Shown here one piece after another: positions 1,648-33,552 of a stretch of 64,000 nucleotides of DNA. Positions within the stretch are counted from its first letter, which is position 1; each line of letters begins with the position of its first letter. The DNA comes from Aeromicrobium sp. A1-2 (GTDB lineage Bacteria; Actinomycetota; Actinomycetes; Propionibacteriales; Nocardioidaceae), in NCBI RefSeq assembly GCF_003443875.1, contig NZ_CP027482.1:62001-126000 (forward strand), read 5' to 3'. Position numbers and translations under genes: made by a program. A model generated the notes under the pieces. That model ran no database searches, was not told the origin of the DNA, and saw only the letters and a list, made by a program, of their open reading frames with translations.

Positions 1648-1744
1648 GGAGAAACCGTACTCGGATCGCGGGCTCGCGGCAGGGGATGCGCACCGTATCG
1701 CTCCGGAGGGCGTCGAAGTGTTAGATTTCACCTGCCATTCGGCA

Positions 1745-1846
1745 CAACTCCATTCGCCCGCATGCCAGGGAAAGCCGGTCAAATTCCGGCGCTGACCCGC
1801 AACCGTAGGCCACCGAGAGGTGGTGAGCCGGAGCACCTGCTGTGGG
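1745..1846 (+). promoter_or_regulatory. Cobalamin riboswitch (AdoCbl/B12 element)
   Basis: Conserved core on the + strand: CCAGGGAAAGCCGGT, then AAATTCCGGCGCTGACCCGCAA, and a 3' B12-box-like segment GAGCCGGAGCACCTGCTG at about 1825-1842. It ends about 75 bases before the ATG at 1923, whose ribosome site is GAGAAGG. By family behaviour it should switch the downstream surface protein/ECF transporter/cobQ/cobK operon off when cobalamin is plentiful. Boundaries are approximate. Confidence 0.88.
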
Positions 1847-1922
1847 AGACACCAATCCACGCTGTCGAGGAACAACACGTGACGGGCATCGAGCCTCTCC
1901 GTGCTGCAGCGAGAAGGAATCC

Positions 1923-2699
1923 ATGCTGACGCGTATCCGGCGTATCCGGCGTATCCGGCGTATCCGGCGTGTGCTGCTGGCTCCGATCGTGATGCTCCCG
2001 GTCGCCGTCCTGGTCTCCGTCGTGCCGGCCAGCCCTGCGGCCGCCGCCGCGTGCTCGTCGGGCACGGGAGTCACCGTGGTCGTGGGATCGAACGTGCAGT
2101 GTGTGGGAGGCGGCGGCCGCTCGGCTGGGTCGGCACTGTCCGCCCGCCACTCGGTGACCCGGGTGCAACGCCAGCCCGGGTTCATCTGCCAGGTGGACGG
2201 CTATCCGTCCAGCTCCTGCGTCAACACGCCACCGGCCGATGCGTACTGGGGGGTGTTCTGGTCCGACGGCAAGTCCGGCCGGTGGTCATACGCCTCGGTC
2301 GGCGTCGACTCGCTCAACATCCCCGCGGGAGGTTGGGTCGGGCTCGCCTTCCAGACCTCGTCGTCGCGCACCTCGCCGGGCGCGACTCCCTACGTCAAGC
2401 CGGCGCCGCGCACGACGTCCCCACCGGCGAAGTCGCCCTCGACTCAGCAGTCGGCCACGCCGGGCAAAACCGCCCCGCCGGCTTCCACGGCCACGCCGAA
2501 GGCTGGTTCCACGTCTTCGTCCACGCCGGCACCGACGGCGACCGCTGACGCTGCGGACGAGCCGGTGAGGTCCGCGTCGCAGACCGTGCAGCGCGGGTCC
2601 GGGACCGCGGGCTGGGTCGCGGCCGCACTCGCCGTCAGCCTCCTGATCGGGATGTGGACGCTCCTGTGGCGGCGCCGCGCCCGAGCGGGGTCGAGCTGA
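1923..2699 (+). CDS. Secreted, C-terminally membrane-anchored beta-domain protein (DUF4430/transcobalamin-C-like), riboswitch-controlled
   Basis: Predicted 258-residue exported protein. An Arg-rich n-region (RIRRIRRIRR) precedes a hydrophobic core and an AAAA-type signal cleavage site near residue 42. A small folded domain (about residues 45-145) carries four cysteines and the segments YWGVFWSDGKSGRWSYASVG and SLNIPAGGWVGLAFQ. A long Ser/Thr/Pro/Ala linker, a transmembrane helix (GWVAAALAVSLLIGMWTLLW) and a positive tail follow. The W-x-G-x-W...G pattern and a terminal strand after a GG turn recall DUF4430 and the beta domain of intrinsic factor/transcobalamin; that likeness is by eye only. 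The start at 1923 has GAGAAGG seven bases upstream and keeps the signal peptide at the N-terminus; an earlier ATG at 1842 lies inside the riboswitch. It is the first gene after the riboswitch and its stop touches the next reading frame. Inferred role: surface capture of corrinoid. Confidence 0.72.
   Translation: MLTRIRRIRRIRRIRRVLLAPIVMLPVAVLVSVVPASPAAAAACSSGTGVTVVVGSNVQCVGGGGRSAGSALSARHSVTRVQRQPGFICQVDGYPSSSCVNTPPADAYWGVFWSDGKSGRWSYASVGVDSLNIPAGGWVGLAFQTSSSRTSPGATPYVKPAPRTTSPPAKSPSTQQSATPGKTAPPASTATPKAGSTSSSTPAPTATADAADEPVRSASQTVQRGSGTAGWVAAALAVSLLIGMWTLLWRRRARAGSS
1932..1967 (+). repeat. Four in-frame 9-bp tandem units coding Arg-Ile-Arg
   Basis: The unit CGTATCCGG occurs four times without interruption directly after the third codon of the first operon gene. 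It encodes the charged start of its signal peptide. Copy-number change would alter the signal charge without shifting the frame. Confidence 0.95.
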
Positions 2700-2755
2700 T
2701 GACCGCGCCGGCAGCACTGCTCCTCCCGACAGTTCGTCCCGACCAGAAAGCCCTC

Positions 2756-4165
2756 ATGTCCCGTCGCATCGTCCGTCGCCTGCTCGCCCTCACCGTCGCG
2801 ATCCCGCTGGCCGTCCTGACGGTCTCCCCGGCCGCGGCGGCTCCCACGCCAGCCGCCAGCTCGGCCGCCGCGTGGTTGAGCGGCGAGCTCACCGGCGGGC
2901 TCGCCCACAATCCCAACTACGGGGGGTTCGACGACTACGGCCTGAGTCTGGACATCTTCTTCGCACTCGACTCACTGGGTGCCGAGCAGGGAGCCGCGGC
3001 CTCGATCCTCGATGCCGTCGCGAGCAATCCGGCGGCGTACATCGGCTACGAACCGTCCATCTACGCGGGGGCGCTCGGCAAGCTCGCGACGGCGGTCGAC
3101 CTCGGGGGCCGGGACCCACGTGCGTTCGGAGGAGCCGACCTGATCGACCGGGCGGAGAAGCGGGTCATGCTCGACGGACCGGCCGCGGGCCGGGCCACGG
3201 ATGCCTTCGACCCTGAGGACCCGTGGGGCGGCGACTACTCCAACTCGATCGGACAGGCGTGGGTCGTCCGTGCCCTGGCCGCAGCCGACAGTCCGCTCGC
3301 CGACGATGTCACCGACTACCTGATCAAGCAGCAGTGCGACGACGGGTCGGTGCGCGTCACGATGAGCGACGACCCGTGCACTGCGGGCTCGGGGACCGTC
3401 GATGGCACAGCCTTCGCCGTCCAGGCCCTTGCGGTCGCCGACGAGAAGGGTCAGGCCGGTCTCGCCGACAGCATCAGCGCGGGTGTCACCTGGTTGCTGG
3501 GTCAGCAGAAGTCCGACGGCTCATTCGACGACGAGGGCAGCGCCAACACCAACAGCACCGGGCTGGCGGCGGCGACGCTGGCTCAGGTTGGCCAGAAGAC
3601 CAGCGCCCAGAAGGCTGCGGCGTGGATCCTGAGCCGCCAGGTCACCACCAAGAACTCCTCCGGCACTGCGCTCAAGAAGCAGATCGGGGCGATCGCCTTC
3701 GACCAGGCCGCGCTGACCGCCGGCAAGGCTGACGGGATCACCGATGCCACGAGCGACCAGTGGAGACGCGCCTCTGCCCAGGCTGCGATCGGCCTGAACA
3801 TCGCGATCCCCGCGACCCCGGACGACTCGACCGCGGGCGGGTCGACGACGGGCGGGTCGACCGCGGGCGGTTCGGCGTCGAGCGACTCGTCCACCAGTGG
3901 AGGCACAACGACGGGCGGCCCGGCGGCGGCCGGTGTCGCGGTGGGAGCGGCGGCCGAGCCCGAGCCCACGCCGACCCCGACGCCCGAGCCGACCGCCACG
4001 CCGACCCCGGTCGACGACAGCGCGGACACCGTTGTCGCGGAGCCGACCAGCGCATCGACGGATGGCTCGATGACGGGCTGGATCGTGGCCGGCATCGCCG
4101 CGGTGCTCATGCTCGGCACCGCCGGAGCGGTCGGGATCGGCCGGCTGCGAGGCGGAGGCGTCTGA
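2756..4165 (+). CDS. Secreted alpha/alpha-toroid (prenyltransferase/squalene-oxidase repeat) protein, membrane anchored, B12-operon member
   Basis: 469-residue exported protein: signal peptide (MSRRIVRRLL... to AAAA, about 29 residues), then roughly 320 residues of helical-hairpin repeats, a Thr/Pro/Gly-rich stalk (TPTPTPEPTATPTP) and a C-terminal transmembrane helix (GWIVAGIAAVLMLGTAGAVG). Repeat signatures include DYGLSLDIFFALDSLG, NSIGQAWVVRALAAAD, DGTAFAVQALAVAD, LLGQQKSDGSFDD and NSTGLAAATLAQVG. This is the alpha6/alpha6 toroid pattern shared by prenyltransferase-repeat proteins and the N-terminal domain of transcobalamins. A terpene-cyclase role is unlikely because it is exported and no DxDD-type catalytic motif is visible. 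The start at 2756 is chosen for the signal peptide; an in-frame ATG at 2699 overlaps the previous stop (ATGA) and is a real alternative. Inferred role: the second half of an extracellular corrinoid-binding module. Confidence 0.78.
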   Translation: MSRRIVRRLLALTVAIPLAVLTVSPAAAAPTPAASSAAAWLSGELTGGLAHNPNYGGFDDYGLSLDIFFALDSLGAEQGAAASILDAVASNPAAYIGYEPSIYAGALGKLATAVDLGGRDPRAFGGADLIDRAEKRVMLDGPAAGRATDAFDPEDPWGGDYSNSIGQAWVVRALAAADSPLADDVTDYLIKQQCDDGSVRVTMSDDPCTAGSGTVDGTAFAVQALAVADEKGQAGLADSISAGVTWLLGQQKSDGSFDDEGSANTNSTGLAAATLAQVGQKTSAQKAAAWILSRQVTTKNSSGTALKKQIGAIAFDQAALTAGKADGITDATSDQWRRASAQAAIGLNIAIPATPDDSTAGGSTTGGSTAGGSASSDSSTSGGTTTGGPAAAGVAVGAAAEPEPTPTPTPEPTATPTPVDDSADTVVAEPTSASTDGSMTGWIVAGIAAVLMLGTAGAVGIGRLRGGGV

Positions 4166-5247
4166 TAGCCGTCCACCCGCGTGACCTGCACCCGGGGGCT
4201 TGGTGGATCTGGGCTCTCGGGCTGTCGGCTGCCGTCTCACGCCTGACCAATCCGTGGCTCGTGGCACTCATCGTGCTGGTCGCGGGATTCGTGGTGCTGG
4301 CGCGGCGGACGGATGCGCCGTGGGCGTTGTCGTTCCGGTTCTACCTCTACCTCGGTCTGCTGATCATCGTGATCCGGGTCGTGTTTCGGATCGTGTTCGG
4401 CGGAGCTGGCGGCGGGCACGTCCTGTTCACGCTGCCCGAGGTCCCGCTCCCGGACTTCGCCGCAGGCCTGCGACTGTTCGGCCCCGTGACGTCGGAGTCG
4501 CTGCTCGCCGGGCTCTACGACGGTATGCGCCTGGCCGGGATCATCATTTGCGTCGGCGCTGCTAATGCGCTGGCCAACCCCAAGCGCCTGCTCAAGTCGA
4601 TGCCGCCGGCGCTGTACGAGATCGGGACCGCGGTCGTCGTGGCGATGTCGGTGTTCCCCCAGCTCGCCGAGAGCATCCAGCGGGTGCGGCGGGCGCGCCG
4701 GCTGCGCGGCGACCCCGGCTCGGGGATCGGTGCCCTGCGTCGTCTGGTCGTGCCCGTCCTGGAGGACGCGCTCGAGCGTTCGATGGCGCTGGCCGCCGGC
4801 ATGGACGCCCGGGGCTACGGGCGCACCGGAAGCGCGACCCGCCAGGAGCGGCGGCTGACCGGCGGGCTGATGCTGGCGGGACTGCTCGGGCTGTGCGTCG
4901 GCACCTACGGTCTGCTCGACTCGACCGCACCGAAGCTGCTGACCTGGCCGATGCTGGTGCTGGGGGTCGGACTCTCCGTGCTGGGATTTGTGACCGCGGG
5001 CCGGCGGGTGCAGCGCACGCGCTATCGCCCCGACCGCTGGCGGGCGGGTGAGGCGGTGTGTGTCGTGTCGGGCGTCGCCACGGTCGTGTTGACGTACGTT
5101 GTAGCGAACCGTCAGCCCGAGGTCGTCAATCCTGGCCTGTCGGCGTTGCCGCCGCTGTCGATCTCGGCGCTGCTGGCTGTCATGATCGGGATCGTGCCGG
5201 CCTTCCTGACGCCGCCTCCCGCCCTGGAGTCGGAGGTGGTCCGATGA
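4162..5247 (+). CDS. ECF transporter T component (energy coupling)
   Basis: Membrane coupling subunit that joins the ABC ATPases to a substrate-binding S component. Several hydrophobic spans run through LVALIVLVAGFVVLA, LYLGLLIIVIRVVFRIVF and LAGIIICVGAANAL. A cytoplasmic coupling region carries an Ala-Arg-Gly motif in AAGMDARGYGR, preceded by an RVRRARRLRG segment. About 361 residues. No ATG or GTG lies near the natural N-terminus. The likeliest start is CTG at 4162, which overlaps the preceding TGA (CTGA); this is not certain. Downstream it overlaps the ATPase gene by ATGA. It sits in the riboswitch-controlled operon between the secreted proteins and the ATPase. Confidence 0.85.
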   Translation: MIAVHPRDLHPGAWWIWALGLSAAVSRLTNPWLVALIVLVAGFVVLARRTDAPWALSFRFYLYLGLLIIVIRVVFRIVFGGAGGGHVLFTLPEVPLPDFAAGLRLFGPVTSESLLAGLYDGMRLAGIIICVGAANALANPKRLLKSMPPALYEIGTAVVVAMSVFPQLAESIQRVRRARRLRGDPGSGIGALRRLVVPVLEDALERSMALAAGMDARGYGRTGSATRQERRLTGGLMLAGLLGLCVGTYGLLDSTAPKLLTWPMLVLGVGLSVLGFVTAGRRVQRTRYRPDRWRAGEAVCVVSGVATVVLTYVVANRQPEVVNPGLSALPPLSISALLAVMIGIVPAFLTPPPALESEVVR

Positions 5248-6827
5248 TCGAGCTGCGTGGCGTGTCGTTCCAGTACGACGGGGCCTCCCGTCCGGTTCTG
5301 CGCGGCGTCGACCTGACGCTCCCCGAGGCCGAGCTCGTGCTGGTCGCGGGTCGCACCGGATCGGGCAAGTCGACGCTGCTGGGGATGTTCAACGGACTGG
5401 TGCCGCACTTCAGCGGGGGGACACTCGAGGGTCATGTGCTGGTCGACGGCGAGGACATCCGTCGCCGGCCACCGCGAGAGCTTGCGGACGTGATCGGCTA
5501 CGTCGGCCAGGACCCGCTCGCCGGATTCGTCAGCGACATCGTCGAGGACGAGCTCGCGTACGGCATGGAGCAGCTGGGCCTCGACGCGCGGACGATGCGT
5601 CGCCGGGTCGAGGAGACCCTTGACCTGCTCGGCATCGCCGCGCTTCGGTCGCGGCCGCTCCGGACGTTGTCGGGCGGACAGCAGCAGCGGGTCGCGATCG
5701 GCGCGGTGCTGACGATGCACCCGCGGGTTCTGGTGCTCGACGAGCCGACGTCTGCGCTCGACCCGACTGCCGCCGAGGAGGTGCTCGCGACGTTGGCGCG
5801 ACTGGTCGACGACCTCGGCCTGACGGTCGTGCTGGCCGAGCACCGCCTGGAGCGGGTCATCCCGTTCGCGGACCGACTGGTGCTGGTCGAGGGCGGCCGG
5901 GTGCGCGATGGCGCGCCGGTCGACCTGCTTGTCGACTCCGAGGTCGCCCCACCGCTGATCGAGCTGGGCCGGCTCGCCGGATGGACCCCTTTGCCGCTCT
6001 CGGTGCGCGAGGCGCGTCGGGCCCGTGGATCGCTCGGGGAGCTGACACTGGACCCCACCCCGCTGCCCGACGCCGACGAGCCGGCCCTCAGCGCGACCGG
6101 CATCTCCGTGGCGTACGGCACGACGATCGCGGTGAAGGAGGTCGACATCGTGGTACCGGCGGGCCGGGTCGTGGCGCTGATGGGACGTAACGGCTCGGGC
6201 AAGTCCTCGCTGCTGTGGGCGTTGCAGGGCACGGGGCGTCGTCGCGCCGGGACCGTCGATGTCGACGGCTCCGATCCGGCGAAGCTGTCCAGCGACGACG
6301 CCCGGGCACTCGTCGGACTCGTGCCGCAGACGGCGAGCGATCTGCTCTACCTGGAGTCGGTCGACGAGGAGTGTGCAGCGGCGGACGCGCAGACCTCGGT
6401 CGAGTCAGGATCGTGCCGCGGCATCCTCGACCGGTTGGCACCGGGCGTCCACGGCGCGTCCCACCCCCGGGACCTCTCGGAGGGTCAGCGACTCGCGCTC
6501 GTCCTGTCGATCGTCCTGACTGCCGAGCCGCGCGTCATCGCGCTGGACGAGCCGACCCGCGGGCTGGACTACACGGCCAAGCGTGAGCTCAGCCAGATCC
6601 TGCGTGACCTCGCCGCCAAGGGCCACGGCGTCCTGCTGGCGACCCATGATGTCGAGTTCGTGGCGCAGGTCGTCGACTCGTGCGTCGTGCTCGCCGAGGG
6701 CGAGGTCGTGTCGTCCGGCCCAACCGCCCGGGTGCTCGCGGAGTCGCCCGCGTTCGCGCCGCAGATGTCCAAGATCCTGGGCCCGGGCTGGCTGACCGTC
6801 GATCAGGTTGCCGAGGCGATGGCATGA
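5244..6827 (+). CDS. ECF transporter ATPase, two fused ABC domains (A-A')
   Basis: 527-residue duplicated ABC ATPase that powers the ECF transporter. Domain 1 has Walker A GRTGSGKST (residues 36-44), signature LSGGQQQR and Walker B VLVLDEPTSALD. Domain 2, from about residue 280, has Walker A GRNGSGKSS, a variant signature LSEGQRLA, Walker B VIALDEPTRGLD and H-loop ATHD. The fused arrangement is common for CbrV/YkoD-like ECF ATPases. ATG 5244 overlaps the T-component stop and has GGAGGTGG upstream. The S component follows with another ATGA overlap, so T, A and S should be made in fixed ratio. Confidence 0.95.
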   Translation: MIELRGVSFQYDGASRPVLRGVDLTLPEAELVLVAGRTGSGKSTLLGMFNGLVPHFSGGTLEGHVLVDGEDIRRRPPRELADVIGYVGQDPLAGFVSDIVEDELAYGMEQLGLDARTMRRRVEETLDLLGIAALRSRPLRTLSGGQQQRVAIGAVLTMHPRVLVLDEPTSALDPTAAEEVLATLARLVDDLGLTVVLAEHRLERVIPFADRLVLVEGGRVRDGAPVDLLVDSEVAPPLIELGRLAGWTPLPLSVREARRARGSLGELTLDPTPLPDADEPALSATGISVAYGTTIAVKEVDIVVPAGRVVALMGRNGSGKSSLLWALQGTGRRRAGTVDVDGSDPAKLSSDDARALVGLVPQTASDLLYLESVDEECAAADAQTSVESGSCRGILDRLAPGVHGASHPRDLSEGQRLALVLSIVLTAEPRVIALDEPTRGLDYTAKRELSQILRDLAAKGHGVLLATHDVEFVAQVVDSCVVLAEGEVVSSGPTARVLAESPAFAPQMSKILGPGWLTVDQVAEAMA

Positions 6828-7666
6828 GCATGACCCAGCAACGCAACGCTGCGGTGCCGATCAGCCGCCGGTCCATTGCGGTCCTGCTCGTCGCGTCGCT
6901 CGCCGGCCTGATGATGTTCGCCTGGCCGCTGCTGCTCAACCCCGACCCGGCCTCGGCGCGGGTCGATCCGCCGTTCTTCTTCCTCCTGCTCCTGCCGCTC
7001 GTCGTGGGCGTCGTGGTTGCCGAGCTGACCGAGGGCGGTATGGACTCCAAGGCGCTCGCGATGCTCGGTGTGCTCACCGCGATCAACGCCGCGCTGCGCG
7101 GGCTCGGCGCGGGCGTTGCTGGCGTCGAGATGGTGTTCTTCCTGCTGATCATCGCGGGCCGGGTGTTTGGCGCCGGCTTCGGTTTCGTGCTCGGCTGCAC
7201 CTCGCTGTTCGCCTCGTCGCTGCTCACCTCGGGCGTGGGTCCGTGGCTGCCGTTCCAGATGCTGGCCTCGGCCTGGATCGGGATGGGCGCAGGGCTCCTG
7301 CCACGCCGGATCTCCGGGCGGCTCGAGATCGCGATGCTCGTGGCGTACGGCATCGTCGCGGCCTATGCCTTCGGCATCTTGATGAACCTGTCGGGCTGGC
7401 CGTTCATCCTGGGCATCGAGCTGCCGGGACATGAGGGCTCGCTGTCGTACGTCGCCGGCGGGCCCCTGCTGGACAACGTGCACCGCTTCGGGATCTACAC
7501 GCTCCTGACCTCGACCGGCAGCTGGGACACCGGCCGAGCGATCACCAACTCGATCGCGCTCGTCGTGCTCGGGCCGGCGGTCCTGGCCACGCTGCGCCGC
7601 GCCGCCCGGCGAGCCCGGTACGGCCCGGTGGCCACGGCATCGCCCGGCCCTACGCTGGAACCATGA
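6824..7666 (+). CDS. ECF transporter S component, probable cobalamin binder (CbrT-like)
   Basis: 280-residue polytopic membrane protein with about six hydrophobic spans (LLVASLAGLMMFAWPLLL, FFFLLLLPLVVGVVVAELT, MVFFLLIIAGRVFGAGFGF, LEIAMLVAYGIVAAYAFGIL and others). It is placed directly after the ECF ATPase. S components fix substrate specificity. Cobalamin is inferred from the upstream cobalamin riboswitch, cobQ/cobK downstream, and the fact that cobalt already has its own CbiMNQO system in this window. The start ATG 6824 overlaps the ATPase stop (ATGAGCATG); the second ATG at 6830 is possible. A cobalt or other corrinoid-precursor substrate is not excluded. Confidence 0.8.
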   Translation: MSMTQQRNAAVPISRRSIAVLLVASLAGLMMFAWPLLLNPDPASARVDPPFFFLLLLPLVVGVVVAELTEGGMDSKALAMLGVLTAINAALRGLGAGVAGVEMVFFLLIIAGRVFGAGFGFVLGCTSLFASSLLTSGVGPWLPFQMLASAWIGMGAGLLPRRISGRLEIAMLVAYGIVAAYAFGILMNLSGWPFILGIELPGHEGSLSYVAGGPLLDNVHRFGIYTLLTSTGSWDTGRAITNSIALVVLGPAVLATLRRAARRARYGPVATASPGPTLEP

Positions 7667-13847: not shown

Positions 13848-14707
13848 GTGCGCTCCTGGTGGGATGGGCGGGCCGACGCGTGCTCGCGCACCGCGGCATG
13901 GATCTCGGCCAGTGACGTGGCGCGGGTCTCGGTCGTCACGAGGCCGTCTGCGGCGAGACGACGGCTCAGGTCGAGCGGCCAGGGCATCCGCAGTCGGGCC
14001 GACTGCAGCAGCTCGGCATCTCCGAGCAGCTCGACCGGATCGCCCTGGACGATCATCCGGTCGTGCGCAACGGCGACGGAGTCCGCCCACGCGACCGCGA
14101 GCGAGACGTCATGGGTCGACAGGACGACCGTCGTGTCGTGCTGCTCGAGCCGCTCCAGCGCGACCATCAGCTCGTCGACGCCGGCCGGGTCGAGCCCGGC
14201 TGTCGGCTCGTCGAGCAGCAGCACGCACGGGCGCATCGCCACCGCGCCGGCCGTCGCGACGCGCTTGCGCTCGCCGTACGAGAGCTGGTGGGTCGGCCGG
14301 CGGCGCAGGTGCTCGATGCCCAGCAGGGACAGGGCCTCGTCGACACGGGAGCGGACCTCTGCGTCATCGAGACCCAGATTCATCGGACCGAAGGAGACGT
14401 CCTGGAAGACATCTGCGGAGAACAGCTGGTCGTCGGGATCCTGCAGGACCAGTTGCACTTCTTGGCGGTGGCGCCGTAGTCCCTTGCGGTCGTACGAGAT
14501 CGGCTTGTCGTCGAGCAGGACCTGGCCGGCATCGGGACGGAGGCTGCCGGCCAGGCAACGCAGAATCGTGGTCTTGCCCGAGCCGTTGGCCCCCAGGAGG
14601 GCCAGGCGCGTCGCCGGAGCGATCTCGAGGGTCGTGCCCGCCAGGACGGTGCCGGTCCCGGTGTAGGCCACCGTCACGGCATCGGCGCGCAGGCTGCGAT
14701 GGCTCAT
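13844..14707 (-). CDS. cbiO: Cobalt ECF transporter ATPase CbiO
   Basis: 287-residue single ABC ATPase for cobalt import. Walker [10 protein letters not shown] (about residues 37-45), Q-loop [22 protein letters not shown], signature LSYGERKR, Walker [14 protein letters not shown] and H-loop STHD. The DPDDQLF Q-loop is typical of metal ECF ATPases. The start ATG 14707 overlaps the cbiQ stop and the gene runs into cobT with a further overlap, linking cobalt supply to loop assembly. Confidence 0.95.
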
Positions 14708-15462
14708 GCGGCGATGCCCGTGGTGAGGGCGGCGAGCGACACGAGGGCGACGAGCGTTGCGCCGCCCGCGACGAGGAACGCCGGAGAGCTTGGCGTCGGA
14801 TCGTCGAGCGTGCGCAACGATGCCGTCAGCTCTCGGCCTGCGAGCCCCTGCTCGAGCCGTCGGGCGCGGGACCACGACCTGGTCAGGATGGCGGCGGTCA
14901 GCATCCCGGCTGAACGCAGCGATCGCCGCAGCGAGCTGTAGCCCAGCCGCGCGGCCTGTGATTCTCGAATCGTCCCGACCGAGTCGAGCAGAATGAACAG
15001 CATCCGGTAGATGAGCCCCGCGACCTCGACGCACGCCTCCGGCAGACGCAATCGGCGCAGGCCGGCCAGCAGGTCGACCATCGGGGTCGTCATCGCGAGG
15101 AGCAGCATCGCCGATGTGCCGGCGATCGCGTGGCCGGCCACACCGAGGGCACGATGCGTGCTCTCGGCGGTCACGGTGAGTCCCAGCCCGTCGCCCGTTG
15201 TGAGCACGACGGCCACCGAGATGCACCCGATCACGATGAACAGTGCCGGTCCCCGCAGGGCTCGGGCCACGAGTCCTGCGGGCGTGCCCGCCCGGGTGAC
15301 GAGCAGCCCCAGGGCGACCGCAGCAACCAGCGGGCTGGTCGGCCAGGGCGGCAGCACCGCGGCCGTCAGCAGCAGTCCGAGGCTCAGGCACGCCTTGTCA
15401 CGCACCGCGCGTTCGCGCCACCGGCTCGACCAGGCGGCATCGTCGATCGCGAGGCCCTTCAT
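14704..15462 (-). CDS. cbiQ: Cobalt ECF transporter T component CbiQ
   Basis: 252-residue membrane coupling protein with spans such as [33 protein letters not shown] and [19 protein letters not shown]. Cytoplasmic helices contain [20 protein letters not shown] and [14 protein letters not shown], the latter resembling the Ala-Arg-Gly coupling motif (here LAGRE). The start ATG 15462 ([11 protein letters not shown]) overlaps the cbiN stop. Order M-N-Q-O is the classical cobalt system. Confidence 0.93.
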
Positions 15463-15800
15463 GGTTGGCCGGGCGTGGGCGAGGACGCTCGGGCGATGAT
15501 CGCCTCGGCCCGCCGTCGACCTCGCAGCGCGCCGAGGCAGTAGCCGAGCGCCATCCCGCCGAGTGCGGCCTGGATCGCGAACAGCCCCGACTCGACCTCG
15601 CCGGATGAGGGGGTGAAGACCGAAGTGAACCACGGCTCGTAGTCGGGGTTGTCCTTCTCGATCTGCGAAGTTGCCGCGCTGTCGCTGCCGACGAAACGGT
15701 CGCCGGAGACGCTGCGACGTGAGTCCAGGACGAGGGCAACACCGACGATCGCGACGATCCCGGTGATCAGCAGCATCGTGATGGCTGTGGAGCGACGCAT
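15459..15800 (-). CDS. cbiN: Cobalt transport protein CbiN
   Basis: 113-residue small auxiliary membrane protein required with CbiM for cobalt uptake. One helix at the N-terminus (ITMLLITGIVAIVGVALVL), an exposed loop with FVGSDSAA and NPDYEPWF that matches the CbiN family, a second helix (LFAIQAALGGMALGYCLGAL) and a basic tail. It starts one base before the cbiM stop codon and overlaps cbiQ. Confidence 0.93.
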   Translation of the reverse strand: MRRSTAITMLLITGIVAIVGVALVLDSRRSVSGDRFVGSDSAATSQIEKDNPDYEPWFTSVFTPSSGEVESGLFAIQAALGGMALGYCLGALRGRRRAEAIIARASSPTPGQP

Positions 15801-15801
15801 G

Positions 15802-16497
15802 TCAGGCCCCCGTCGTTTCGGTCGGGCTGGGCGCTGGCGCCTTGAGCACACCGAGCCGGATGAGCTCAGGTGCTGCGAGGTCGCGCAGCAGGCGGAAGAC
15901 CAGCACGCCGAGCAGGCCCTCGGCGATCGCCAGCGGGATCTGGGTGACGGCGAAGATCGACAGGAACTTGGTCGCTGCGCCGAGCACCCCACTGCTGGGG
16001 TCGGGGAAGGCCAGAGCCAGTTGCATCGACGTGACGCAGTACGTCGACAGGTCGGCCAGGGCCATGGCCGCGAAGACCGACGCCGACAGGCCACCGCCGA
16101 TCAGCCCGACGAGCCGGTAGGCGCCGTAGCCGACCCACGGGCCGACGACCGCCATCGAGAAGGCGTTCGCCCCCAGGGTCGTGATGCCGCCGTGGCCCAG
16201 GAGGAGGGCCTGGAACAGCAGGACGACCGTGCCCAGGAAGGCCATGACGGGGGGTTTGAAGAGCACCGCCCCGAAGCCCGTCCCGGTGGGGTGGCTCGAG
16301 CTGCCCGTGACGGACGGGAGCTTGATGGCCGACAGGACGAAGGTGAACGCCCCGGCGGCTCCGAGCAACAGCTTGGTCTCGGGATCGTCCCGCACCTGGC
16401 GGACGACGGACCGGCCGCCGTGGATGACGAACGGGGCTGCGGCCAGGGTCCAGACTGCGGCGTGGACCGGGGGCAGGAAGCCTTCGGCGATGTGCAT
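15802..16497 (-). CDS. cbiM: Cobalt transport protein CbiM (S component)
   Basis: 231 residues. The mature-like N-terminus [10 protein letters not shown] supplies the Met1/His2 metal ligands typical of CbiM/NikM, and [20 protein letters not shown] is the conserved metal-binding loop. Multiple transmembrane spans. First gene of the cbiMNQO-cobT-cobS operon, with TAGGAG just upstream and a cobalamin riboswitch about 40 bases further. Cobalt rather than nickel follows from the context and the CbiN/CbiQ partners. Confidence 0.96.
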
Positions 16498-16534
16498 GTA
16501 ACTCTCCTAGGATGACGCGTCCAGATGAGCGAGG

Positions 16535-16640
16535 CAGCGGTGAAGTCTCTGACTTCCGGATCGTGATTCGACCCGGTCACAGTGGCGCGACCGTCCCGGA
16601 TTTTCGCCGGGTTCCTTGCACCGTTGCCTTGAGCTCGCTC
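16535..16640 (-). promoter_or_regulatory. Cobalamin riboswitch upstream of cbiM
   Basis: Read on the - strand: GGTGCAAGGAACCCGGCG, AAAATCCGGGACGGTCGCG, CCACTGTGACCGGG and, at the 3' side, GGAAGTCAGAGACTTCACCGC (B12-box region). All parts of the class I cobalamin riboswitch core are present in order. It controls the cobalt transporter operon. Ends are approximate. Confidence 0.93.
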
Positions 16641-23304: not shown

Positions 23305-23359
23305 GTGGGGCTCCCGCTCGACTGCCGACGTACGGCGGACGCGGCTGCGCCCACCTGTC

Positions 23360-23485
23360 AGGCGCGAGGCCGGTCTTCGGACTTCCCAGATCTAGGTCTG
23401 GGTCACCGCAGCGGGCCCTGTGCCGGATTCTCACCGGCTTCCCGATTCTCCCCTTGCGGGGCACCTCGAGCCTTGTGGTCGCAAG
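23360..23485 (-). promoter_or_regulatory. Cobalamin riboswitch upstream of the chelatase-cobO-cobB/C-cobA operon
   Basis: On the - strand: GGTGCCCCGCAAGGGGAGAA, GGGAAGCCGGTGAGAATCC, GGCACAGGGCCCGCTGCGG and GGAAGTCCGAAGACCGGCC (B12-box region). The order and spacing match a class I cobalamin riboswitch, ending about 55-75 bases before the ATG at 23304. Limits are approximate. Confidence 0.93.
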
Positions 23486-29776: not shown

Positions 29777-29817
29777 GCCCGCGATTATCCCTGCTCGACT
29801 CCCAGTACGCTGACCGT

Positions 29818-29925
29818 GTTCGCCTCGCCGCGAGCTTCAGGAACCCGGTGCGAGTCCGGGGCGGTTCCGCCACTGTGTACGCCGAGCGAGCTCGGCCAGC
29901 CAGACACTGACCGCGGCGAGTCCCA
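29818..29925 (+). promoter_or_regulatory. Cobalamin riboswitch upstream of cobN
   Basis: GCTTCAGGAACCCGGTGCGA, GTCCGGGGCGGTTCCGCCAC, TGTGTACGCC and GCCAGCCAGACACTGACCGC give the cobalamin riboswitch core and B12 box. It is followed by a short CCCAATGTTGGG palindrome, a GGGG...CCCC pair (about 29930-29946) and the cobN ribosome site GGAGGAG, an arrangement suited to hiding the ribosome site. Confidence 0.93.
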
Positions 29926-29959
29926 ATGTTGGGGCGTGAAACCCCCTGGAGGAGCTCGC

Positions 29960-32900
29960 ATGACGCGCATCGCCCTGCTGTCCACGTCCGACACCGATCT
30001 GCTGTCGGCCCGCGCGAGCGGTGCGGACTACACGTACGCCAACCCGGCCCGACCCGGGCACCAGGAGATGGCCGCGGCGATCGAGGCCGCAGACCTCGTG
30101 GTGGCCCGCATCCTCGGATCACCGCAGGACCTGTGCGAGGGCTTCGCCCGCATCCGCGCGACCGGCAAGCCCATGATCGTGCTGGGCGGCGAGCAGTCGC
30201 CGAACGCCGAGCTGATGGAGCAGTCGACCGTGCCGATCGGCATCTGCGCCGACGCCCACGTCTACCTCGCGGAGGGCGGCCCGGCCAACCTGGCCCAGCT
30301 GCACGCGTTCCTCTCCGACACCGTCCTGCTGACCGGCGAGGGCTTCGAGCCGCCGGCCGTGCTGCCGGAGTGGGGGTCGCCGAGCGTCCGGTCGTGGCGC
30401 CCGATCTGCCGAGGATCGGAGTCCTGTACTACCGGGCGCACGAGGCTTCTGGCAACAACGGCTTCGCGCACTCCCTCGCCGACGCGATCGATGCGACCGG
30501 CGAGGCGGTCGGCGTGCCGATCTTCAGCTCGTCGCTGCGGGCCGCGCCGGACGACCTGTTCGTCGAGCTCGCAAACCTCGACGCCCTGATCGTCACGGTG
30601 CTCGCCGCCGGCGGCACCAAGCCCGGCACCGTGAGCGCCGGCGGCGACGACGAGGCGTGGGACGTCGAACGCATGAAGGCGCTCGACATCCCGATCCTGC
30701 AGGGCCTGTGCCTGACGTCGAGCCGCGCCGACTGGGAGGCATCCGACGACGGCGTGACCCCGCTGGACTCGGCCAGCCAGATCGCGATCCCGGAGTTCGA
30801 CGGCCGCCTCATCACGGCACCGTTCTCGTTCAAGGAGATCGACCGCGACGGCCTGCCGCGCTACGTCGCCGACGCCGAGCGGTGTGAGCGGGTCGCCGGC
30901 ATCGCGGTCGCCCACGCCCGCCTGCGCCACGTGGCGCCCGCTGACCGCAAGATCGCGATCATGCTGTCGGCCTACCCGACCAAGCACTCGCGCGTCGGCA
31001 ACGCGGTGGGTCTCGACACCCCGGTCTCGGCCGTACGCCTGCTGCGCGCGATGCGCCACGCGGGCTACGACCTCGGCGCCCCCGGCGACATCCCCGGGCT
31101 CGACCTCGAGGACGACACCGAGGCCGGCAACGCCCTGATCCACGCCCTGATCGCCGCGGGCGGCCAGGACGAGGAGTGGCTGACCAACGCCCAGCTGAGC
31201 GACAGCCACGTGCGGATCGACGCCGACGACTATCGCGCGTGGACCGCGCACCTACCCGCCTCGTTGACCGACGCCATGACGCAGACGTGGGGCCCCGCGC
31301 CCGGCGAGCTGTTCGTCAATGACGCGCAGGAGATCGTGCTGGCGACGATCACGGCGGGCAACCTGGTGATCCTGATCCAGCCGCCCCGCGCTTCGGTGAG
31401 AACCCCGTCGCGATCTACCACGATCCCGACATGGCGCCGTCGCACCACTACCTCGCGGCGTACCGCTGGCTGGAGAACCAGCCGGAGCGTGGCGGCTTCG
31501 GCGCCCACGCCGTCGTGCACCTGGGCAAGCACGGGTCGATGGAGTGGCTGCCGGGCAAGAATGCCGCGCTTTCGGCCGCGTGCGCGACCGATGCCGCGAT
31601 CGGCAACCTGCCGTTGATCTACCCGTTCCTGATCAACGATCCGGGCGAGGGGGCGCAGGCCAAGCGCCGCGCGCACGCCACGATCATCGACCACCTGATC
31701 CCGCCGATGGCGCGGGCCGAGTCGTACGGCGACATCGCCCGGCTCGAGCAGCTGCTCGACGAGTACGCCAACATCGCCGCGATGGACCCGGCCAAGCTGC
31801 CGGCGATCCGCGCCCAGATCTGGACCCACATGCGGGCCGCCCAGATGCACCAGGACCTCGGCCTGGAGGAGCGCCCCGACGACGAGGAGTTCGACGACTT
31901 CATCCTGCACGTCGACGGCTGGCTGTGCGAGATCAAGGACGCCCAGATCCGCGACGGTCTGCACATCCTCGGTCAGGCGCCCGAGGGCGAGGCGCGGGTC
32001 AACCTCGTGCTCGCGATCCTGCGCGCGACGCAGATCTGGGGTGGCGAGACCGGCTCGCTCCCGGGGCTGCGCGCTGCATTGGGGCTCAAGGAGGGCGAGT
32101 CCGCCACGGCGGTTGACGCGATCGAGGTCGAGGCCAAGGCTCTGGTGCAGGCCATGGAAGACGGCGGCTGGGATGCGGCAACCGCATCGACCCTCCATGA
32201 CGACGCAGCCGTGATCGGCATCCTGGAGTTCGCCGCGACCGAGGTCGTGCCGCGGCTCGCCAAGACGTCCGACGAGCTCGACGCGATCCTGCACGCGCTG
32301 GACGGCGGCTTCATCCCGGCGGGACCCTCCGGCTCGCCGCTGCGGGCCTGGTCAACGTGCTGCCGACCGGCCGCAACTTCTACACCGTCGACCCCAAGGC
32401 CGTGCCGTCGCGACTGGCCTGGGAGACCGGCCGGGCGATGGCCGACTCCCTGATCGAGCGGCACCTGGCCGACACAGGGAGTACCCGCGCTCGGTGGGCC
32501 TCTCGGTGTGGGGCACGTCCGCGATGCGCACATCGGGCGACGACATCGCCGAGGTGCTCGCACTGATCGGCGCCGAGCCGGAGTGGGACGAGGCCTCGCG
32601 ACGTGTCAACGGACTGCGGATCGTGCCGCTCGACGAGCTGGGACGCCCGCGCATCGACGTCACGGTGCGCATCTCGGGCTTCTTCCGCGACGCGTTCCCC
32701 CACGTCATCGCGATCCTCGACGACGCGATCCGTCAGGTCGCCGACCTCGACGAGCCCGATGACCGCAACTACGTACGCGCCCACGCGCAGCGCGATCTCG
32801 CCGAGCACGGTGACGAACGCCGGGCCACGACCCGCATCTTCGGCTCGAAGCCCGGCTCGTACGGCGCGGGCATCCTGCAGGTCATCGAGGCCGGCAACTG

Positions 32901-33552
32901 GCGCGACGACAACGACCTCGCCGAGGTCTACACGGCGTGGGGCGGCTTTGCGTACGGCCGCGACCTCGACGGTGCACCCGCCGCCGACGACATGCGCGCC
33001 AACTACCGCCGCATCGCCGTCGCGGCCAAGAACATCGACACCCGCGAGCACGACATCGCCGACTCTGACGACTACTTCCAGTACCACGGCGGCATGGTCG
33101 CGACGGTCCGCGCGCTGACCGGCGCGGAGCCCAGGGCGTACGTCGGGGACTCGACGACGCCCGACGCCGTGCGGACGAGGACCCTGCAGGAGGAGACCAC
33201 GCGGGTCTTCCGTGCCCGCGTCGTCAACCCGCGCTGGATCGGAGCGATGCAGCGGCACGGCTACAAGGGTGCGTTCGAGCTCGCCGCGACGGTCGACTAC
33301 CTGTATGGCTTTGATGCGACGACGGGTGTCGTGCACGACTGGATGTACGAGACGCTGGCCAAGGAGTACGTCCTGGACGAGGCCAACCAAGCCTTCATGA
33401 AGGACGCCAACCCGTGGGCGCTGCGCGGCATCATCGAGCGGCTCAACGAAGCGGCCGACCGCGACCTGTGGGCCGACCCGGATCCCGAGGTTCTCGCCGC
33501 GATGCAGCAGGTCTACCTCGACGTCGAGGGCGATCTGGAGGATCGCGGCTGA
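29960..33552 (+). CDS. cobN: Cobaltochelatase large subunit CobN, four apparent frameshifts
   Basis: Porphyrin-binding large subunit that inserts cobalt into hydrogenobyrinic acid a,c-diamide with ChlI/ChlD-type ATPases. Seen in order: [156 protein letters not shown] and [20 protein letters not shown]. The frame slips by one base at about 30372-30376, 31388-31391, 32344-32346 and 32477-32479. Restoring one G at each gives exactly 1199 codons, normal for CobN. ATG 29960 has GGAGGAG upstream. The stop overlaps the cobF start. Confidence 0.92.

Follow-up and report, generated by a model that had tools for sequence, protein, structure and literature searches.

In a stretch of 64,000 nt from the genome of Aeromicrobium sp. 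A1-2 (RefSeq assembly GCF_003443875.1, contig NZ_CP027482.1, positions 62,001-126,000 of the forward strand; hereafter the window, whose own numbering is used throughout) we found an operon that probably encodes a system for the capture and import of corrinoids, in which two exported proteins, a beta-grasp protein (beta) and an alpha/alpha-toroid protein (toroid), would bind the corrinoid and hand it to an energy-coupling factor (ECF) importer. The operon lies on the plus strand and consists of a cobalamin riboswitch aptamer in the 5′ leader (1718-1858), the beta gene (1923-2699), the toroid gene (2756-4165, with an alternative ATG start at 2699) and the ECF genes for a T component (from about 4162 to 5247), a fused double ATPase A-A′ (5244-6827) and a putative S component, the substrate-binding membrane protein (6824-7666). 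This order and the near-overlaps of the genes, as the first-pass annotation had read them from the sequence, are confirmed by the coordinates. Below, L-numbers denote loci of other genomes and G-numbers denote genomes, the window genome being G000.

The riboswitch was called with the Rfam model RF00174, which is covered from position 1 to 189 of 189 at 1718-1858 (+), with 26.4 bits and an E-value of 6.9e-5 in a search of 461 bases. Because this score is below the gathering cut-off, the element is absent from the scan of the whole window at the gathering score, which returned only 16523-16639 (-), 23351-23483 (-) and 29800-29929 (+). In the operon of the nearest relative (L061) two riboswitch elements are present, of 42.3 and 37.6 bits, both above the gathering score, and window positions 1718-1922 are 86.7% and 87.9% identical to its two leaders over 195 and 199 aligned bases, respectively. 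The full-length match and the L061 elements thus bear out the cobalamin riboswitch of the first-pass annotation. A further riboswitch model, R1, gives the window element 104.3 bits, a value to be read knowing that the window sequence itself helped to build R1.

The first-pass annotation had also described two exported proteins with C-terminal membrane anchors, and the hydropathy of both products is in agreement with it (no dedicated signal-peptide predictor was run): each of the two has a hydrophobic segment at the N-terminus and, at the C-terminus, a hydrophobic stretch that carries a basic tail. In the beta protein, the only beta match in the 3.45-Mb single contig of the window genome, the predicted transcobalamin C-domain-like beta-grasp domain (about 2034-2399) is followed by a Pro/Thr/Ser-rich linker that leads to the C-terminal hydrophobic stretch. 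Pfam gave no match to this protein at E ≤ 1, the beta profile, run against the PDB sequences, had no match at E ≤ 10, and the NCBIfam family SCO2322_fam (NF040672) matched it with E 0.34 and 11.3 bits, the cut-off being 85 bits.

We then rely on a model of the window beta domain produced by AlphaFold from 64 aligned rows (one row, L106, entered twice), with a predicted local distance difference test score (pLDDT) of 89.9 and a predicted template modelling score (pTM) of 0.84. Fourteen of the first 18 Foldseek matches of this model were transcobalamin, haptocorrin, intrinsic factor or the bacterial structure 3u7z, which we take to be a DUF4430 protein. When Foldseek's own matches (596 top-ranked chains) were rescored with VIA-align, the first 15 PDB entries all belonged to these same proteins, with Z values of 8.6-10.1 and root-mean-square deviations of 2.5-3.0 over 88-90 residues, and the next entry was a sulfur-carrier protein with Z 6.1. 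A Z of about 10 for some 89 residues, well separated from the following entry, gives good grounds for assigning the modelled domain to the fold of the transcobalamin C-domain; it is silent on function. Hence the likeness to DUF4430 and transcobalamin C-domains, proposed for this protein by the first-pass annotation, was found again in the predicted model. As to the question of an SLBB beta-hairpin insert, the secondary structure of the model has strands at 41-43 and 51-54 following a helix at 31-38. Just past the start codon of the beta gene, at 1932-1967, four tandem 9-base units (cgtatccgg) encode an Ile-Arg-Arg repeat heading the signal peptide.

The toroid domain spans about 2846-3815. The window protein matches the NCBIfam family SCO2321_fam (NF053823) with E 5.5e-12 and 45.3 bits against a cut-off of 300 bits, and a profile built from 52 toroids finds chains of squalene-hopene cyclase with E 2.6e-32, so that the toroid fold of the window protein is supported by sequence comparison. 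The fold was modelled on a beta-toroid fusion of another genome (L136) in place of the window protein, the alignment of a second fusion (L129) being discarded because toroid rows entered its beta region. In the L136 model (pLDDT 93.3, pTM 0.83) the toroid resembles terpene-cyclase toroids with VIA-align Z values up to 25.8, and transcobalamin stands at Foldseek ranks 47-48; VIA-align gave mainly toroid matches, with no transcobalamin among the 50 rows listed, which does not speak for a different fold. The Pfam family Cobalamin_bind (PF01122) was found at E ≤ 1 in 10 of the 52 toroids (best E 0.035), the window toroid not being among them; in another search the toroid of L164 reached E 0.0053 and 16.2 bits against a cut-off of 25, and the window toroid was again outside the three matches.

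That squalene-hopene and drimenyl diphosphate cyclases head the profile matches could suggest that the toroid is a secreted enzyme, similar to terpene cyclases or prenyltransferases. DXDD is the catalytic acid motif of squalene-hopene cyclase, and in the 52 aligned toroids its third position is Asp in every one but its fourth in none, so the motif is not kept. Since the protein is moreover predicted to be exported and anchored, and its gene goes together with ECF importer genes and a cobalamin riboswitch, we regard an enzyme as very improbable. The prenyltransferase reading in particular was rejected on the missing fourth Asp.

As regards the importer genes, the T component is CbiQ-like (PF02361, 39.8 bits, cut-off 25) and A-A′ contains two PF00005 stretches (E 6.6e-49), both above the Pfam cut-offs. 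The product of 6824-7666 is a putative S component, called by its position and by ECF-S matches below cut-off (PF07155, E 7.6e-4; TIGR04518, E 0.014). It shows 39-81% identity to the products of 23 other loci, and the top named relatives among the matches listed are in metagenome-assembled genomes (MAGs) of Nocardioides (76-78% identity) and of Aeromicrobium (81% over a shorter stretch). No ATG, GTG or TTG was seen for the T gene near the toroid stop, around 4162, and a CTG or another unusual start is possible.

We surveyed other genomes starting from both the S and the beta protein. A scan of named genomes with the S alignment gave at least 592 stretches, of which 577 were relatives, and the best 80 were kept as L101-L180; they come from many actinomycete genera and from one Acidimicrobiia MAG. 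Thirteen of them were left out, having at most 4.5 kb before T or no T in the stretch, and 67 were counted. The beta-based sample (L061-L100) was chosen for spread: half of it was taken from the family (20 of the 83 genomes with a beta match, 120 being searched) and half from the class (20 of the 67 genomes with SCO2322_fam above its cut-off, 197 being searched and 87 having any match). A few genomes are in both samples.

Precisely, a riboswitch of at least 30 bits was upstream of T in 66/67 S loci, and in 59 loci its distance from the first gene was no more than 700 nt; of the other eight, seven have their first toroid gene ahead of the riboswitch and one (L157) has no riboswitch. Conversely, L101-L180 contain 91 riboswitch matches that score 30 bits or more, and 85 of these are followed on their own strand, at a distance of no more than 900 nt, by a beta, toroid, T or S domain. 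In all 40 beta loci a beta or toroid domain follows a riboswitch at a distance of at most 900 nt (13 of the 40 supplied sequences to the riboswitch model), and when Rfam was applied at its gathering score to 23 of them a match was obtained in 8/11 and 6/12. T and S were present in 38 of these 40 loci and a toroid in 30. A linkage by chance is unlikely, since the window genome has only six riboswitch matches in 3.45 Mb and yet 40/40 beta loci and 66/67 S loci carry one before the operon genes. The co-occurrence with cobalamin riboswitches and ECF genes, suggested by the first-pass annotation as a check, was therefore obtained from both samples.

Nine of the beta loci (L084-L088, L090, L094, L098 and L099) contain beta, ECF genes and riboswitch, with no toroid found in the locus; two of them (L088, L090) belong to genomes of 1.3-1.4 Mb. 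In L088, L090 and L098 T is without most of the C-terminal extension, of about 130 residues, found in the window T.

The S loci bear also on the part played by each exported protein, beta being placed before T in 64 of the 67 and a toroid in 53. On this count, one could think that the two proteins receive corrinoids without clamping them, with beta alone delivering to the ECF importer and the toroid acting, for instance, as a second binding site or as a tether to the wall. The genomes that have beta and no toroid-family match point in the same direction, as does the structure 5np4, titled 'Beta domain of human transcobalamin bound to cyanocobalamin'. On the other hand, the two domains are joined in a single reading frame in 12 cases within L061-L180, in both orders: toroid then beta in L071, L076, L077, L129 and L165 (in L165 with a hydrophobic stretch between the domains, while the fusions of L077 and L129 are a nearly identical protein), beta then toroid in L112, L120, L136, L147, L167, L175 and L179. 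Furthermore, separate toroid or fused units near the operon keep a riboswitch of their own in L108, L115, L116, L132, L136, L138, L154 and L175, and a cobalamin riboswitch on separate toroid units ties the toroid to corrinoids. Considering both sides, we hold a receptor that does not clamp to be somewhat unlikely.

These fusions also qualify the claim of the first-pass annotation that the two folds are separate proteins, which stands for the window and for most loci and fails for the 12 reading frames. Pairs of beta and toroid are duplicated in L061, L065 and other loci. Altogether, beta seems to be the half that stays with the importer, and the toroid an accessory half that lineages have fused, duplicated, moved or lost. 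An extra beta gene lies directly 3′ of S in L062, L063, L064, L072 and L110. The bare order of the window (beta, toroid, T, S, with no toroid upstream) has no counterpart among the 80 layouts of L101-L180; as a guess, it could have arisen by loss from a toroid-beta-toroid-beta array such as that of L061.

A related arrangement is found with DUF4430 proper (PF14478). This family has no match in the window genome, where beta is not filed as DUF4430, and it is above its cut-off in 26 of 149 genomes of the phylum, 15 of which we examined. In the 15 loci an S homologue was present in 11, a riboswitch match in 11 (some weak) and a toroid in 7. The order in L198 and L207 is riboswitch, PQQ (pyrroloquinoline quinone)/beta-propeller protein, DUF4430 protein, T, A, S, toroid, so that the DUF4430 protein occupies the usual place of beta immediately before T. 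The loci L198, L207, L195 and L193 open with a large PQQ beta-propeller protein, or with DUF4430 and a weak propeller in one protein, mostly behind a riboswitch match (none in L193), and in L197, L199, L201 and L202 a long unscanned open reading frame is at the propeller position. The beta-propeller protein brings to mind BtuG of Bacteroides. In L205 a DUF4430 match and a cobalamin riboswitch (7222-7338, 78.9 bits) share one stretch of 13 kb, with no T, A or S match there.

For the operon of the window we propose the following steps. At low intracellular cobalamin the riboswitch, judging from its class, would permit expression; the beta and toroid proteins would leave the cytoplasm and be held by their anchors on the outside of the membrane, as their sequence features suggest; both together, or beta first with the toroid closing, would bind a corrinoid in the way of the domains of transcobalamin and intrinsic factor, whose folds are those predicted here; and the corrinoid would pass to S and be moved inside with T and A-A′, as the composition of the operon suggests. 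In its most specific form this would be a split transcobalamin, with two anchored proteins around one corrinoid, beta providing a fixed docking site and the toroid an exchangeable lid, used even by B12-equipped actinobacteria and perhaps serving to recapture leaked or foreign corrinoids. We put this form forward tentatively, as falling a little short of probable.

The bacterium of the window does appear to make B12, as the first-pass annotation had stated: cobyric acid synthase, precorrin-6A reductase, CbiB, a CobU-type protein, CobBC, CobJ, precorrin-8X methylmutase and CobF are all encoded in the window with matches above their cut-offs, and a CobS-like protein and a chelatase are there below theirs. 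With these enzymes, the host of the system is likely itself a producer of B12. This makes one ask whether the operon imports another B12-related ligand (cobinamide, other cobamides, a lower-ligand base or cobalt) and not cobalamin, all the more as a riboswitch reports only regulation by cobalamin and the cobalt genes of the window also sit behind one. Those genes, CbiM and CbiQ with their riboswitch at 14707-16639, make cobalt itself an unlikely substrate, being already in place, and a corrinoid suits the transcobalamin-like fold; we therefore consider a ligand other than cobalamin unlikely.

Several points weigh against the corrinoid-capture operon proposed above. So many B12 synthesis enzymes leave the need for uptake questionable. 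The riboswitch of the window, at 26.4 bits, is below the Rfam gathering score of 31.5. The Foldseek E-values for beta are weak (best 0.024, none ≤ 0.001) and Pfam DUF4430 matches 0/64 beta domains even at E 1; as Pfam, DUF4430 and PDB profile searches gave nothing, the assignment of the beta fold is one of prediction alone. Sequence comparison with the S profile picks out none of the solved S components, the PDB search giving one row at chance level (E 7.1). The counts of co-occurrence hold for close relatives, because the best 80 of the 577 S relatives were examined. In 14 of the 67 S operons T is not preceded by a toroid (in six of them a toroid follows S, and in eight the stretch examined contains none), and in three of these 14 (L110, L144, L163), the only such cases among the 67, beta is missing before T as well. 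In G138, G144 and G148 a beta is present, with no SCO2321-family match at E ≤ 0.001 anywhere in these genomes. Finally, 4 of the 15 DUF4430 loci (L193, L196, L204, L205) showed no S homologue. The operons without a toroid before T and the beta genomes without a SCO2321-family match imply that a strict two-part clamp is not general.

The first-pass annotation could not tell whether such a system had been described, and here the general concept turns out to be known already: Burroughs et al. 2007 (PMC1796856), in the passages on these proteins, defined the SLBB (soluble-ligand-binding beta-grasp) superfamily, reported bacterial fusions with the toroid in both orders and operons with CbiO/CbiQ, and proposed that the bacterial SLBB/toroid proteins scavenge B12 and that they were transferred to animals from low-GC Gram-positives. 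According to the same passages, the transcobalamin-like clade occurs in low-GC Gram-positives and planctomycetes and more rarely in euryarchaea, and bacteria with that clade usually are without key B12 synthesis enzymes; a Mycobacterium is among the abbreviations that go with Figure 2. The terms 'riboswitch', 'B12 element' and 'Streptomyces' are absent from the main text. The window operon shares with the bacterial SLBB proteins, as presented there, the beta-grasp fold, the toroid in either order, the surface location, the CbiO/CbiQ neighbours and the proposed role in scavenging B12; unlike them, its folds are mostly separate anchored proteins, its beta is outside Pfam DUF4430 and its genome encodes B12 synthesis.

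Compared with animal transcobalamin, haptocorrin and intrinsic factor, the predicted combination of a toroid and a beta domain has the same folds, but the animal carriers are one chain and animal-specific, while the actinobacterial version usually has two membrane-anchored chains beside an ECF importer. Elsewhere in the class, members of the NCBIfam families SCO2321_fam and SCO2322_fam take the same places in the operon; the window proteins are below both cut-offs, and the family names give no function. With ECF-CbrT, as set out in the relevant part of the eLife paper of 2018 (PMC5997447), the window system would have in common an ECF-type cobalamin transport by S, T and two ATPases, unlike it in having an extracellular receptor pair, of which none is described in that part, and in an S profile that finds no solved S component. 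In a proteome table of Lacticaseibacillus (PMC9963975) one entry reads 'additional lipoprotein component of putative cobalamin ECF transporter', so, as far as that table goes, an extra component of a cobalamin ECF system is already annotated elsewhere. We found no paper on SCO2322 or SCO2323 in the openly licensed PMC literature (a weak negative, SCO2321 not having been searched by name), nor one in the same literature that joins cobalamin riboswitch, prenyltransferase and ECF (also a weak negative). What is new here is a mostly split, riboswitch-linked actinobacterial variant of a known concept.

This variant gives a proposed and testable function to two families that so far have none assigned, the SCO2321 and SCO2322 relatives, of many Actinomycetota including Streptomyces, and suggests a route by which these bacteria acquire corrinoids. 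It also extends the bacterial kin of the animal B12 carriers to a lineage in which each domain mostly has a gene of its own and which lends itself naturally to questions about the role of each half and the origin of the one-chain carriers. Through the link to the riboswitch, toroid and beta genes outside the ECF operon become candidates for further corrinoid-binding proteins.

Among the other B12 genes of this genome, CobN lies in pieces in both its copies. In the window (about 30074-33528) it consists of six pieces in changing frames that jointly cover model positions 75-1225 with small gaps, and a second CobN, at C1:11805-15262, consists of two overlapping pieces; the pieces point to either assembly frameshifts or decaying genes.

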